Below, piece after piece: positions 1,381-6,940 of a stretch of DNA of 10,320 bases. The DNA comes from Mariprofundus sp. (GTDB lineage: Bacteria > Pseudomonadota > Zetaproteobacteria > Mariprofundales > Mariprofundaceae): NCBI GenBank assembly GCA_030951095.1, contig JAUZQI010000079.1:1-10320 (forward strand). The letters run 5' to 3'. Below the pieces are notes generated by a model. It worked only from the letters and a program-made list of their open reading frames with translations. It searched no databases and had not been told where the DNA came from. The stretch's first letter is position 1; every line of letters begins with the position of its first letter. A program made the position numbers and the translations under genes.

Positions 1381-2487
1381 TCAGGCCAGAGGACTCCCCG
1401 GCCGCTGCCACGGGATTTTTTCTTTTGACTCAAGGGCAACCCGCATCACCAGGCCGAGCGCCGCCAGCATGGTGACCAGTGCCGAACCGCCATAACTGAT
1501 AAATGGTAACGGCAAGCCGACAACGGGGAATAGCCCTGACACCATGCCGATATTAACCGTGATATACAGTATGAATATCAAAGCAATGCCAATACAGAGC
1601 AATGAGGCAAAACGGTTGTGGGCACGGTGGCCGATCAAAAGAACCCGCAAAATAAGTACAGCATAGAGCGATAACAACAGTACAACAGCGAGAAAGCCGC
1701 CTTCCTCGGCCAATATGGAGAAGATGAAATCGGTATGTTGCTCAGGTAAAAAGTGTAATCTTCCCTGAGTTCCTTGCAAAAAACCCTTGCCTGCTAATCC
1801 CCCTGATCCAATGGCAATGGTAGATTGAATCACATGATAACCGGCGCCCAGTGGATCGGATTGCGGATCCAGCAAAGTGAGTACACGCTGCTTCTGGTAA
1901 TCATGCATGAAATGCCATAATACGGGCAAGGAGGCAATTCCTGTCACAATGGAAATCATCAACAGCCTCCAGGGCAGCCCTGCGGCAATAACCATGCCGG
2001 TGGCTGCAAACAGCAGCACCAGAGTCGTTCCCAAATCCGGCTGGATGATGATCAGACCAGCAGGGATTACAGCCAATAACAGTGGCACCATAATCTCGAC
2101 CTTACCTCTGGCTTCCCGGCTGGAAAACCAGCTTGCCAACACAAAAATCAGTGCCCATTTCATAATTTCCGAGGGTTGAATATTAGCAACTCCAAGATCC
2201 AGCCATCTGCGCGCACCCATGTGTATATCGCCGACCAGTGGTACAAGCATCAGTAACAGCAATGCCGCGCCATACATGGGCCAGCAGGCCAACCCCAGTA
2301 TCCGCAGGGGCACAAAACACAGCATGCTGAATACCAGCATGCCAATCGCCCAGAACATGGCCTGTTTTTGCCATAATTCGCTATCTCCCTGATGTACTGC
2401 GGCATAGAGCACAATCATACCCAGTGCCGCCAGCCCAAACAGGCTGGCAAGCAATATCCAGTCCAGAGATTTCAACATACGAATCAC
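1381..2487 (-). CDS. rodA: RodA, SEDS-family peptidoglycan glycosyltransferase of the rod complex
   Basis: RodA (also called mrdB) polymerises lipid II into glycan strands for lateral-wall growth, working with PBP2 in the inner membrane. The 368-aa polytopic protein shows the SEDS landmarks: RRWLDLG...QPSEIMK (93-110), IQPDLGTTLV (148-157), FLPEQHTDFIFSILAEE (246-262), which holds the Asp (D253) matching the catalytic aspartate known in RodA, and the C-terminal block GLFPVVGLPLPFISYGGSALV (318-338). Length is typical. The start chosen is a GTG at 2487, because AAGGTGA (2494-2500) lies 6 nt upstream. An ATG three codons further in is less well spaced. The GTG overlaps the mrdA stop as GTGA, a 4-bp overlap implying translational coupling. 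It is the last gene of the minus-strand wall cluster, and no terminator is evident beyond it before the converging permease. Confidence 0.95.
   Translation of the reverse strand: MIRMLKSLDWILLASLFGLAALGMIVLYAAVHQGDSELWQKQAMFWAIGMLVFSMLCFVPLRILGLACWPMYGAALLLLMLVPLVGDIHMGARRWLDLGVANIQPSEIMKWALIFVLASWFSSREARGKVEIMVPLLLAVIPAGLIIIQPDLGTTLVLLFAATGMVIAAGLPWRLLMISIVTGIASLPVLWHFMHDYQKQRVLTLLDPQSDPLGAGYHVIQSTIAIGSGGLAGKGFLQGTQGRLHFLPEQHTDFIFSILAEEGGFLAVVLLLSLYAVLILRVLLIGHRAHNRFASLLCIGIALIFILYITVNIGMVSGLFPVVGLPLPFISYGGSALVTMLAALGLVMRVALESKEKIPWQRPGSPLA
1397..1424 (+). terminator. Possible rho-independent terminator of the permease gene, inside the rodA 3' end
   Basis: The plus strand has CCCG (1397-1400), a 10-nt loop, then CGGG (1411-1414), followed directly by ATTTTTTCTTTT. 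It lies 34 bp past the permease stop, so it could end that transcript while overlapping the last rodA codons. The 4-bp stem is short, and the T-run may simply encode the Glu/Lys-rich RodA tail, so confidence is low. Confidence 0.25.
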
Positions 2488-4319
2488 GGCGTTTCACCTT
2501 TTGAGATATTGACCTGTTGTTTTGCAGCCATAGTTTCAATAATGGCGGCGGCTACAGGGCCGGCACTGCTACCGCCGTGGCCGCCATGTTCAACAAATAC
2601 AGCAATGGCAATTTTTGGCTTATCGTATGGTGCATAACCCATGAACCATGCATGATCCCTGTGACGCCGCAGCAGTTCATCTTTGCTCAGTTCCTTCTTT
2701 TCATTCCGGCGTATTTTCACCACCTGCGCCGTGCCTGTTTTTCCTGCCACTGCCCAAGCAGCTTTTGACAGCACCCTGTGTGCCGTACCATGAGGGTTCA
2801 GGACGACGCCCCGCATCGCTTGCTGAATTTTTTGCAATTGCTCTGGCTTAATATCCACCTGATGCAATACCTCTGCCTGACTACCCGCCAATAACTGCGG
2901 TTTGAGTACTTTACCGCCGTTGGCAATGGCGGCAGCCAGACGCGCCATCTGTAGCGGCGTCACGGTTAGCAACCCCTGGCCAATAGCAGTAATCATCGTT
3001 TCTCCACGATACCATTTCTTGCGTTTGGTATGACTGCTTTTGAAAGCGGCCATCATGTATGGCTGATGGGTGGGAATGATGCCGCGCGCTTCCGGCGATA
3101 AATCAATTTGCGTTTTCTCCCCTAGCCCCAACTCATGGGCAGTATCGCTGATTGCCGCCATACCAAGCTGATCGCCCAGCTGATAAAAATAAACATCGCA
3201 GGATTGAATCAGCGCCGAATTCAGCGTGACTTTACCATGCCCCCGGTGTTTCCAGCAGTGTAGTTTTCTGTCGGCAAGTTCAAGATAGCCCGGGCAAAAT
3301 GCACTTCCGTTCGCCAGACGGATGCCATTTTTAAGAGCGCCCAGTGCCGTGACAAGCTTGAACGTTGAGGCCGGTGGATATGCAGCCTGAGTGGCCCGAT
3401 TCAAAAGCGGCCTTTCCGGATTATTCAGCCACGCATTCCACTGCTCGGACTCCAGGCCGGTAATAAAACGATTGGTGTCGTAGCCGGGCTTGCTCAGCAT
3501 GGCAATGATATCGCCGGTTCTGACATCCATGACAACAACAGCGCCGGTTCTTTCTCCCAGCGCATCAGCAGCAGCCTTCTGAATATCGATATCCAGAGCA
3601 AGTTGAATCTGATCACCCATGACAGGAGGTGCCCGTTTTACAACAGCTACGCGTCTGCCACGTGCATCAACCTCTTCTTGCTGATGGCCGGGTTGGCCAT
3701 GAAGCTTTAGTTCAAAACTTTTTTCCACACCCGTGCGGCCAATAAATTCAGTGGGCAGATAACCGGCATCCATATCTTTCTTTCTGGCCAGTGATAAATA
3801 GCCGATCAGATGCGATGTCAGTTCGGCATACGGATATTGGCGGTAACTGCCGGCCTCGACGTCTACACCCGGCAGGTGGTGCAATCGGGCTGCCAGTGGC
3901 GCAACATTCAACCACTGCAATTTGTCATCCAGTAATACCGGTCGGTCGGGTCGTCTGGCCCGTTGAATTCTTTTGTGGATCAATGCGAATTTTGCCGGCG
4001 TCCAGACCAGCATCTCAGCCAAAATATTCAAAGTCGCATTGAGATGCTCTACCCGCTCCGGAATCAAAACAATGCGATACGCGATGCGGTTGATGGCCAG
4101 CCCCTTGCCATGGGCATCGATAATTTCCCCGCGCACCGGCAACACCGGCACTATGTTCAGACGGTTTTGATTGGCCTGCAGTGCATACTTGTCATGTTCA
4201 AACCACTGCATCTGCATAATGTGGAACAATAGCAGCCCCAGCAGCACCGGTACTGATGCATAAAAGAGGAGCATACGCACATCAAAGCGCTGTCGAGCCT
4301 CAAGCTTCTTGTTGCGCAT
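2484..4319 (-). CDS. mrdA: Penicillin-binding protein 2, peptidoglycan D,D-transpeptidase of the elongasome
   Basis: PBP2 crosslinks the glycan made by RodA and is a class B penicillin-binding protein anchored by one N-terminal membrane helix (about residues 15-37). All three transpeptidase motifs are visible: S318-T-F-K321 (in YPPASTFKLVTALGAL) with the acylated Ser318, S373-C-D375, and K527-T-G-T530 (VAGKTGTAQV). The N-terminal pedestal domain contains VRGEIIDAHGKGLAIN (62-77) and EFIGRTGVEKSFE (191-203). The FMGYAPYDKPKIAIAVFVEH block (559-578) closes the domain. At 611 aa it is close to the usual 600-650. The ATG at 4319 has GAGG 4-5 nt upstream. The gene overlaps the mreD end by 20 bp and the rodA start by 4 bp, so expression is probably coupled with both. 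Confidence 0.95.
   Translation of the reverse strand: MRNKKLEARQRFDVRMLLFYASVPVLLGLLLFHIMQMQWFEHDKYALQANQNRLNIVPVLPVRGEIIDAHGKGLAINRIAYRIVLIPERVEHLNATLNILAEMLVWTPAKFALIHKRIQRARRPDRPVLLDDKLQWLNVAPLAARLHHLPGVDVEAGSYRQYPYAELTSHLIGYLSLARKKDMDAGYLPTEFIGRTGVEKSFELKLHGQPGHQQEEVDARGRRVAVVKRAPPVMGDQIQLALDIDIQKAAADALGERTGAVVVMDVRTGDIIAMLSKPGYDTNRFITGLESEQWNAWLNNPERPLLNRATQAAYPPASTFKLVTALGALKNGIRLANGSAFCPGYLELADRKLHCWKHRGHGKVTLNSALIQSCDVYFYQLGDQLGMAAISDTAHELGLGEKTQIDLSPEARGIIPTHQPYMMAAFKSSHTKRKKWYRGETMITAIGQGLLTVTPLQMARLAAAIANGGKVLKPQLLAGSQAEVLHQVDIKPEQLQKIQQAMRGVVLNPHGTAHRVLSKAAWAVAGKTGTAQVVKIRRNEKKELSKDELLRRHRDHAWFMGYAPYDKPKIAIAVFVEHGGHGGSSAGPVAAAIIETMAAKQQVNISKGETP
2494..2500 (-). promoter_or_regulatory. 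Ribosome-binding site deciding the GTG start of rodA
   Basis: The minus strand reads AAGGTGA, 6 nt before GTG at 2487 and 15 nt before the next in-frame ATG. The spacing favours the GTG. The site lies inside the last codons of mrdA. Confidence 0.55.
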
Positions 4320-4707
4320 ATTGCCTCGTCAACAGATGCCATACCGGAATGCACAGACACAATGTCAACAGAGCTGCCGTCAGCCCCCAGCCGGGTTGCA
4401 GCAGAGAAAGCACGACAACCAACATCAGCAACAACCTTTGCGGCAAGCCGGCTCCAAGGTGCTGATCCAGATAAATCATAGCCAGCGGTACCAGTGTCAC
4501 CATTAGAAAACTGGCTCCAAACGACCAGTAGAGCACAACATCATGAATCAGCACACAGGGCAGTACCCATACCCAGTTTTGGCGATGTGCCAACAGGCTG
4601 GCCAGAAGCAATGCAAGTGCCCAATCCGGTTGCATCAGTGTGCTTGAAAAGGCCAAATTCAGGCTGATGCCGAGTAGCGAAAAAACAGGAATGATGATCG
4701 AAATCAT
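4300..4707 (-). CDS. mreD: MreD, rod shape-determining membrane protein
   Basis: MreD is a small polytopic inner-membrane partner of MreC that helps regulate PBP2/RodA activity. This 135-aa protein is almost wholly hydrophobic, with about five predicted helices. It starts MISIIIPVFSLLGISLNLAF, and a central segment reads WVLPCVLIHDVVLYWSFGASFL. MreD proteins diverge strongly in sequence, so the call rests on size, membrane profile and position between mreC and mrdA. I place the start at 4707, where ATG overlaps the mreC stop as ATGA. A longer frame back to 4743 exists but would overlap mreC by 40 bp and add 12 polar residues unlike an MreD N-terminus. There is no clear Shine-Dalgarno, which fits translational coupling to mreC. 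Its 3' end overlaps mrdA by 20 bp. Confidence 0.88.
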   Translation of the reverse strand: MISIIIPVFSLLGISLNLAFSSTLMQPDWALALLLASLLAHRQNWVWVLPCVLIHDVVLYWSFGASFLMVTLVPLAMIYLDQHLGAGLPQRLLLMLVVVLSLLQPGWGLTAALLTLCLCIPVWHLLTRQYAQQEA

Positions 4708-5492
4708 GGTATTTCGTGCAGTTGAGATGCAACTGCCAGCCATGTATCACGCTGCCAGTGCGCAACCGGTGCAGCAGATACGCTAATAAACAGCTGGCCG
4801 GGAATCGGTCGAATCCTGGTAATGCGTGCGACTGCAATGCCGGGGGGGAACATTCCGCCAGCACCACTGGTATACAGAATTTGTCCTGGCTGGGGAGCCT
4901 GCTCCAGCGGCACAAATTCAATCGACAGGCTTTCACCCTGACCGCGTGAAATGGCTGCCAGAGCCATTCCGGGAATGGTAACAGGCACAACCAGCGAGGC
5001 ATCGAAAATGGTTCTGACCGTTGCGTGATTTTCCGATGTACTGTCCACAACGCCCACCAGACCTTCACTGGATACAATGACATCATCTCTGGACACATCA
5101 TCCACCTGCAAGACCAACCGCTGGCTCATGGCTTCCGGACTGCGACCCCGGACTTTGGCGGCATGCCAGCGATAACCGGTAATATCAGAAATTTCGAGAA
5201 TTTTCCTGAGCTGCCGGTTTTCTTCCCTCAGGCTATTTGCTTCCTGAATCAGGGCAGCCTGCTGCTGGGATTTTTTCTCAAAGGTCAGATATTTCTTATG
5301 CAGCGAATCCTGTTCGGTAAACCACAGTTCAGCAGATTGCCACCACTGCACAGGTGCATGCAATGCTTCCAGAGCCGGCCACATGGCCAGCATGGCAGAA
5401 GATCCGATAGCAAAGCGGGAAACGGCGTAAAGACTCAGGAAAATAACGATAACAATCGTCCACAGTCTGTAGCGGCGGGAAATGGAGATCAT
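4704..5492 (-). CDS. mreC: MreC, rod shape-determining periplasmic scaffold protein
   Basis: MreC links the cytoplasmic MreB machinery to periplasmic PBP2. The 262-aa protein has a short basic N-terminus (SRRYR), one membrane helix (about 11-32), a coiled coil (about 58-98, with EKKSQQQAALIQEANSLREENRQLRKIL), and then the beta-rich domain with SEGLVGVVDS (141-150), TIFDASLVVPVTIPG (161-175) and YTSGAGGMFPPGIAVARI (206-223). The last of these is the conserved TSG-GG-(F/Y)PPG signature. It is shorter than the 367-aa E. coli protein because it lacks the low-complexity C-terminal tail, as many MreC proteins do. The ATG at 5492 is the only plausible start, but it has no Shine-Dalgarno: the 4 bp before it are one copy of the AAAT direct repeat, and beyond that lies the MITE-like element. 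Its stop overlaps mreD as ATGA. Confidence 0.93.
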   Translation of the reverse strand: MISISRRYRLWTIVIVIFLSLYAVSRFAIGSSAMLAMWPALEALHAPVQWWQSAELWFTEQDSLHKKYLTFEKKSQQQAALIQEANSLREENRQLRKILEISDITGYRWHAAKVRGRSPEAMSQRLVLQVDDVSRDDVIVSSEGLVGVVDSTSENHATVRTIFDASLVVPVTIPGMALAAISRGQGESLSIEFVPLEQAPQPGQILYTSGAGGMFPPGIAVARITRIRPIPGQLFISVSAAPVAHWQRDTWLAVASQLHEIP

Positions 5493-5661
5493 AAATGAGC
5501 CACTTGCAAAAGTCGTGAACGGCGAGTTACTTCCCCTCTCCGGCGCATTGTCGAACTGGAATTTCGGAGCATGGAACCACCATGCTCCTCATTCCATTCC
5601 AAAAATTCACTCGACGTGGCATTGCAATTCATCCACTCAGACTTTTGCAAGTGGCTCAAAT
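5493..5661. repeat. Target-site duplication AAAT flanking the MITE-like element
   Basis: AAAT occurs at 5493-5496 and again at 5658-5661, immediately outside the inverted repeats. Removing one copy plus the element (165 bp, exactly 55 codons) rejoins the sequence so that GATGAATGATT would lie directly upstream of mreC (plus-strand view). A 4-bp match can arise by chance (1 in 256), but its exact placement against perfect inverted repeats makes chance unlikely. Confidence 0.65.
5497..5657. mobile_element. 161-bp MITE-like element inserted 4 bp upstream of the mreC start
   Basis: The element begins GAGCCACTTGCAAAAGTC (5497-5514) and ends with the exact reverse complement (5640-5657), giving an 18/18 terminal inverted repeat. 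The 4-bp sequence AAAT flanks it on both sides (5493-5496 and 5658-5661), as expected for a target-site duplication. Inside, arms nest symmetrically around a centre: GTCGA/TCGAC (5550-5554, 5611-5615), TGGAAT/ATTCCA (5557-5562, 5591-5596) and a 9-bp stem GGAGCATGG/CCATGCTCC (5566-5574, 5580-5588) with a 5-nt loop. It encodes no transposase. Short size, perfect ends, duplication and palindromic interior are the hallmarks of a MITE moved in trans by a related insertion sequence. The TTGCAAAAGTC terminus resembles ends I associate with IS4/IS5/IS1182-like elements, but family assignment needs a search. It lies in the 389-bp gap between mreB and mreC. Confidence 0.78.
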
Positions 5662-5775
5662 GATGAATGATTACAATGTTATCATTGCACTCACATGCGA
5701 GCACGGAAAATACCATTCTGTATAGCCAGCTATTCATTTGCCGGTAACTCGGCAGCAATACTGTTAATATTCGGA

Positions 5776-5781
5776 ATTATA
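5776..5781 (-). promoter_or_regulatory. Candidate -10 box for mreC-mreD-mrdA-rodA
   Basis: On the minus strand TATAAT stands in the mreB-mreC gap, preceded directly by TG (ATGTATAAT). No good -35 hexamer is found 16-18 bp upstream. A transcript from here would begin near 5769 and carry a leader of about 275 nt, including the whole MITE-like element, before mreC. It is the best promoter candidate in the gap but is not proven. Confidence 0.33.
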
Positions 5782-5840
5782 CATCTCAATCTGGCACATT
5801 CCGTGACGCTTGCCTGTACGATAGTCGAATCCCGCGAGGG

Positions 5841-5876
5841 AAAAACCATGGATGGTCTTTTTGCAACTTCATCCAT
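5841..5876 (-). terminator. Terminator-like hairpin just downstream of mreB
   Basis: In transcript direction the sequence is ATGGATG (5876-5870), a 15-nt loop, CATCCAT (5854-5848), GG, then TTTTT (5845-5841). The 7-bp stem starts 5 bp after the mreB stop codon. The stem has only moderate GC content and a long loop, so termination may be partial. If active, it separates mreB from mreC transcription or sets a lower level for the downstream genes. Confidence 0.4.
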
Positions 5877-5881
5877 CTGAA

Positions 5882-6940
<1,059 letters not shown>

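Follow-up and report, generated by a model that had tools for sequence, protein, structure and literature searches.

A MITE of 161 bp has inserted directly before the start codon of mreC, a normally essential cell-shape gene, in the window (the whole 10,320-nucleotide stretch of Mariprofundus DNA analyzed here), and a short upstream reading frame that ends on that start codon passes through the insert without a stop. That the element is a MITE, and that it was inserted before mreC, is as good as certain. We propose, at a probability of about 0.5 for the account as a whole, that mreC is now translated by termination-reinitiation from this lengthened upstream frame. What stands out is an insertion that preserved the frame although it struck the start of a core gene; the family itself is new and of a known kind.

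The element and both AAAT copies together occupy 5493–5661, and one 4-bp duplication separates the element from the mreC ATG (5492–5490, minus strand; Table 1). Its terminal arms are complementary at 18 of 18 positions, or 19 counting the flanking T/A. The sequence-only reading had described a 161-bp unit with perfect 18-bp ends, an inner palindrome and AAAT flanks, ending 4 bp from the mreC ATG, and all of this is borne out. Further downstream, an alternative mreD start at 4707 would overlap the mreC TGA as ATGA.

Table 1. Features at and around the insertion before mreC (positions within the window).
Feature	Position	Strand	Basis or remark
MITE copy, 161 bp	5497–5657	+ (arbitrary orientation; mreC transcription runs along the minus strand)	sequence; family copies
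Left terminal inverted repeat, 18 bp, GAGCCACTTGCAAAAGTC	5497–5514	+	arm comparison; terminus matches
Right terminal inverted repeat, 18 bp	5640–5657	−	arm comparison
Inner palindrome GGAGCATGG-AACCA-CCATGCTCC	5566–5588	none	pairing of GGAGCATGG (5566–5574) with CCATGCTCC (5580–5588); folding
Target-site duplication AAAT, left	5493–5496	none	flank comparison
Target-site duplication AAAT, right	5658–5661	none	single copy in G004 and G018
Short upstream frame, 82 aa	5489–5737	−	ATG 5737 to TGA 5491–5489
40 nt adjoining the mreC start before the insertion	5658–5697	−	nucleotide conservation in relatives; element now separates it from the ATG
mreC, intact, 262 aa	4704–5492	−	PF04085
mreB, upstream gene, 345 aa, ends GAGGAGTAG	5882–6919	−	Pfam
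mreD candidate, 135 aa	4300–4743	−	without Pfam match; named by position and the sequence-only reading
mrdA	2484–4319	−	Pfam
rodA	1381–2487	−	Pfam; GTGA overlap with mrdA

The element is one of a large family. Across its own genome (1.65 Mb, 78% complete), the terminus matched with at most two mismatches at 77 forward and 74 reverse positions, while a reversed-pattern control gave 0 forward and 0 reverse matches. At least 73 MITE copies were found in 70 partly overlapping genome stretches, and the genome holds about 75; the 73 comprise 63 full-length copies with both flanks, nine partial copies and one at a contig end. The 4-bp flanks are identical in 49 of the 63 full-length copies and agree at three of four bases in seven more; 2000 shuffles of the right flanks gave 1.61 identical pairs on average and at most 7. 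The target duplications are 78% A+T against 50% for the window, and lengths of 161 and 160 bp account for 39 and 18 copies, respectively. The family thus has inverted ends, is short, carries no transposase gene, occurs in many dispersed copies, and shows both target-site duplications and an empty site, which are the traits by which MITEs are recognized, and the suspicion of a MITE-like insertion at mreC, for which a search for further copies had been advised, is upheld by the copies, the duplications and the empty sites. Misassembly at a repeat was judged unlikely because the flanks are colinear with those of relatives and the duplication is perfect. A conserved element-encoded peptide was also rejected, since no frame is open throughout the 35 copies compared and four copies from G005 have no open frame at all.

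Comparison with relatives identified the site before insertion. All 23 genomes of the genus have mreC, with an mreB–mreC gap that ranges from 3 to 224 bp and reaches 389 bp with the element. In the two closest relatives (G004 and G018; 93% MreC identity), the gap is 224 bp and contains one ATTT. Because the 389 bp of the window equal these 224 bp plus 161 bp of element and 4 bp of duplication, G004 and G018 represent empty sites, each with the single AAAT/ATTT that was to be looked for in close relatives. The element is absent from the 105 bp available upstream of mreC in a third relative (L136; 92% MreC identity), from the 134 bp available before mreC in G014, and from the gaps of the remaining congeners, which measure 3 to 99 bp. 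Gap sequences were compared in 21 of the 23 genomes, and in the other two (G008 and G005) the sequence after mreB was used.

The family extends beyond this genome. When up to ten candidates were scored per genome, the MITE or its end was matched in 20 of 78 genomes of the class, with long matches in 14, the window's own genome included, and short end matches only in six (G006, G010, G017, G022, G050 and G055). Perfect 4-bp duplications flank 13 of 27 copies from G001, G005, G014, G015 and G027. Loose MITE candidate places number 178 in G085, 157 in G005 and 87 in G081, against 87 in the own genome (ten scored in each), and no transposase match at E ≤ 1e-30 was found in G085, G005 or G081.

The MITE terminus also bounds an insertion sequence in two genomes (G017 and G010), which supplies the related insertion-sequence end that had been called for. 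The insertion sequence in the congener G017 (L068) is 1458 bp long and encodes a 379-aa DDE transposase; its ends are identical to those of the MITE at 22 of 22 positions on the right (5636–5657 in the window) and 14 of 15 on the left. Its transposase scores over the cut-offs of Pfam DDE_Tnp_1 and DUF772 and is labeled ‘IS5/IS1182 family transposase’ in one source; with NCBIfam scores below cut-off for both IS1182 (103.7 bits, cut-off 270) and IS5_4 (62, cut-off 140), we place it in the IS5/IS1182 group at group level only. Three of the 78 class genomes contain this transposase at E ≤ 1e-30: G017, G010 (with one TAG) and G069. The related insertion sequence of G069 has ends (GAGGTAATTGCAAAACTC) that are similar to the MITE ends and not the same, and the MITE terminus was unmatched with up to three substitutions at the eight loci tested. 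Flanks read TATG/TATG for one G069 copy (L162) and GTAT/ATAT for L068, the remaining insertion-sequence copies being cut by contig ends or truncated. An intact transposase of this kind was not found in the 78%-complete own genome, where the one trace is a 38%-identical fragment with three stops; the family there is either orphaned or has its transposase in the missing part of the genome.

The sequence-only reading had also placed the element at a former Shine-Dalgarno position, a claim that finds no support. Across the genus, all 12 congeners whose gap measures 3–9 nt have a Shine-Dalgarno sequence at the usual distance (−5.9 to −8.4 kcal/mol), mostly as GAGGAG at the end of mreB, and pairing with the anti-Shine-Dalgarno is −3.3 kcal/mol or weaker in ten of the 11 genomes with longer gaps, the other being G007 (−7.2 kcal/mol). 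No such pairing at the usual distance was found in G004, G018, L136 or the joined empty site, and the window reaches −2.1 kcal/mol. As the three relatives with this leader have no Shine-Dalgarno before mreC, the insertion displaced none. The further suggestion that initiation signals came with the element is weak: a Shine-Dalgarno-like GAGAGGGGA is indeed present inside it (5532–5540, minus strand, −8.2 kcal/mol), but some 40 nt separate this stretch from the mreC ATG, and none of the 30 open codons leading up to that ATG in the mreC frame is an ATG, GTG or TTG. A search of 5400–6000 that covered sigma-70-type promoters alone gave no match (0.9 expected by chance).

What the longer-gap genomes share is a stop/start overlap. 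ATGA occurs at the mreC start in all 11 long-gap genomes among the 23 of the genus, against a GTGA overlap in three of the 12 short-gap genomes (G008, G012 and G021; Fisher p = 2.7e-4, ignoring kinship, the genomes being related and the independent cases fewer). The second mreC codon varies (ATC, ATT, ATG, AAC or AAT). The start is TGATG in L136 and ambiguous in G014, where it reads ATGATG and the upstream frame is a few codons long. A passage of PMC6728339 lists both ATGA and TGATG as ways in which gene pairs overlap.

In the window, the TGA that overlaps the mreC ATG as ATGA closes a frame of 82 aa, compared with 27 aa in G004 and G018. The insert and duplication together measure 165 nt, or 55 codons, and are free of stops in this frame, so that it gained these 55 codons and still overlaps mreC as ATGA. 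The element consensus is open in three of its six frames; the upstream frame therefore had a roughly even chance of staying open, and its doing so was not a rare outcome. Upstream of ATG 5737 it continues without a stop past TTG 5758, and its ATG has weak anti-Shine-Dalgarno pairing (−2.5 to −3.5 kcal/mol). Selection on the upstream peptide was tested, and the codon changes do not support it: non-synonymous changes exceed synonymous ones in five of six pairs and equal them in one, with no consistent third-position excess and no coding constraint.

The predicted fold of the element is −82.8 kcal/mol on the strand transcribed with mreC and −68.8 kcal/mol on the other. Paired changes occur within the family: in the 35-copy alignment, columns 16/149 are C-G in 18 copies and G-C in 16, columns 6/159 are A-U in 25 and U-A in 8, and changes of that kind affect seven of 31 predicted pairs. 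When the whole element was included (200 or 400 nt upstream), nucleotides −20 to −5 had an unpaired probability of 0.00 and the AUUU before the mreC AUG one of 0.67–0.69; at the same lengths, the values for −20 to −5 were 0.21–0.37 in G004 and G018, with 0.43 at 200 nt for the joined empty site. With 60 or 100 nt upstream, which loses the other stem arm, the window gave 0.51–0.52, and full pairing thus depends on including the whole hairpin. With nucleotides −20 to −5 predicted to be fully paired, ordinary ribosome binding there should be blocked. MreC is still under purifying selection: the window genome gives mreC dN/dS values of 0.074 with G004, 0.081 with G018 and 0.076 with L136, compared with 0.094 (G004–G018), 0.098 (G018–L136) and 0.285 (G004–L136, dS 0.048) in pairs without it; relaxed selection on mreC was not seen in these pairs.

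The element is best explained as a non-autonomous MITE of about 161 bp that belongs to the IS5/IS1182 transposase group, is presumably moved in trans and makes a 4-bp, AT-rich target duplication; after the split from G004 and G018, it inserted into the ATTT that adjoined the start codon of mreC. We propose that ribosomes would then translate the upstream frame, unwinding the hairpin en route, terminate at its TGA and re-initiate on mreC through the ATGA overlap. Translation of the upstream frame and dependence of mreC on re-initiation are the steps that we infer from sequence, and mreC has perhaps been kept intact because the insert leaves the short frame open onto its start codon. The overlap motifs, the scarcity of Shine-Dalgarno pairing in long-gap genomes and the constraint kept on mreC speak for this mechanism; the unconstrained upstream peptide, the weak pairing at its ATG, the conservation of the sequence before mreC at the nucleotide level, the few-codon frame of G014 and the kinship of the long-gap genomes speak against it.

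The same insertion can be read in other ways. If the hairpin simply loops out, it would return the conserved stretch that precedes the element to a place beside the mreC AUG, allowing direct initiation. The near end-to-end predicted fold with its mostly unpaired AUUU would suit this, as would the conservation of that stretch: clade members differ at 3–5 of the 40 nt closest to mreC, against 9–16 of the 40 nt before those in five of six pairs and none between G004 and L136. A precedent exists in phage T4, whose genes 25 and 38 have split ribosome-binding sites, as described in a passage of PMC3014915. The best anti-Shine-Dalgarno pairing between −70 and the ATG of the joined empty site is nonetheless only −2.8 kcal/mol, at −62, and the mreC hairpin is far larger than those of T4, so we regard looping-out as unlikely. 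Conserved as nucleotides and not as codons, the stretch before mreC may be another kind of signal. It is conserved in four genomes (5658–5697, minus strand) and contains a small dyad, CAATG-AYAA-CATTG. A separate observation concerns G018 (L043), in which AGGCGGG (−6.4 kcal/mol) stands 8 nt before an in-frame GTG, the two lying 62 to 47 nt before mreC; this GTG is a candidate start of the upstream frame, and AGGCGGG was not seen in G004.

RNase III might instead cut the hairpin, leaving a separate mreC mRNA with a short leader that is uncoupled from mreB. The stem is long and near-perfect, the genome encodes RNase III (TIGR02191, 204.5 bits, over cut-off), and transcripts that contain Correia elements are cleaved by this enzyme according to a passage of PMC10969869. 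The resulting mreC 5′ end would still have no Shine-Dalgarno at the usual distance, however, and we give cleavage a low probability. It is about equally improbable that the MITE merely lowers mreC translation, the insertion being neutral or slightly deleterious and having become fixed by drift. Such a reduction would follow naturally from a stem that buries nucleotides −20 to −5, and the window copy has no special conservation (seven substitutions against the consensus of the 44 main copies, which is the median value); against it stand the constraint kept on mreC (dN/dS 0.074–0.081) and the intact upstream frame and overlap. A native structured mreC leader without any insertion has a negligible probability and is ruled out by the empty sites, the duplications, the other copies and the absence of the 161 bp at mreC in relatives, with no Rfam match in 5300–6000 at E ≤ 1 and no supporting point found.

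Copies elsewhere in the own genome also lie at gene starts. In a gene of the NAD-dependent epimerase type (Epimerase, PF01370; L128 1974–3011, contig C69), a MITE sits in frame after codon 3; the relative of this gene in G022 starts MSRYPDNILILGCG, and its counterparts in G004 and G018 diverge in the part preceding LLILGCG. In msrA (PF01625; L119 1899–2654, contig C153), a MITE lies in frame within codon 3, counted from a candidate start; the whole msrA frame is open and has 55 additional codons ahead of a presumed signal peptide. Both resemble cases of Rickettsia palindromic elements (RPEs) that are described in part of PMC10969869, and they are the only such copies found among the 63. Two further copies (L007 581–590 and L016 1496–1504) end 5–6 bp before a candidate ATG, one beside a lysine-decarboxylase/SLOG-like gene and the other beside an ORF for which Pfam gave no match. 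Copies at L002 1662–1680 and L015 1666–1681 abut a Shine-Dalgarno-like stretch (AGAGGAG or AAAGG) that precedes a candidate start, and the 4-bp duplication copies part of this stretch. Enrichment at start codons is unsupported. Six copies at contig edges and a doubtful ‘inside’ copy were set aside, and for the other 56 of 63, each with two called neighbors, the median distance is 41.5 to gene ends that face the element with their stop (n = 58) and 96 to those that face it with their start (n = 54); the gene calling was rough, overlooking msrA, the epimerase-type gene and the genes at L007 and L016, and these figures are therefore approximate.

With the element and its duplication making up whole codons and three of six frames open, the MITE could land on a start codon and extend a putative coupling ORF. 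We tentatively extend the proposal of termination-reinitiation to suggest that the hairpin has become a translated lead-in of mreC, whose translation would be tied to ribosomes crossing a transposon, and that the family perhaps tolerates landings at gene starts by being read through, as the msrA and epimerase-type copies might illustrate. Beyond mreC, the analysis describes a MITE family for Zetaproteobacteria along with a related insertion sequence, and a gene that has remained under selection with a strong hairpin naturally placed 4 nt ahead of its start codon. The empty sites of close relatives provide a ready test of whether short ORFs that end on start codons carry translation through structure.

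No published account of a MITE in Mariprofundus or the Zetaproteobacteria was found, and none of the papers retrieved on MITEs, start codons and hairpins concerns this family, judging by titles and the beginnings of abstracts. MITEs related to IS5/IS1182 are similarly short, lack a transposase gene, share the ends of insertion sequences with DDE transposases, have target-site duplications and occur in many, mostly intergenic copies; unlike them, the mreC family is palindromic over nearly its full length. Correia elements (NEMIS) of Neisseria also form a hairpin, a possible RNase III substrate, and can sit just upstream of genes, but the mreC MITE has no outward promoter match and makes a 4-bp duplication, whereas that of Correia elements is TA. 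RPEs are likewise palindromic, about 150 bp long and carry readable frames within host genes; nearly half of them lie in genes, as stated in a passage of PMC10969869, whereas the mreC family is in frame inside a gene in two of 63 copies and has no frame open in all 35 compared. Phage T4 genes 25 and 38 share a hairpin between an upstream leader and the AUG, but there the Shine-Dalgarno lies upstream of the hairpin, and none was found at mreC. Our proposal has a parallel in termination-reinitiation coupling at ATGA and TGATG, the same overlap motifs as at the mreC start, except that the upstream partner here is a short, non-conserved candidate ORF that has been lengthened by a mobile element.
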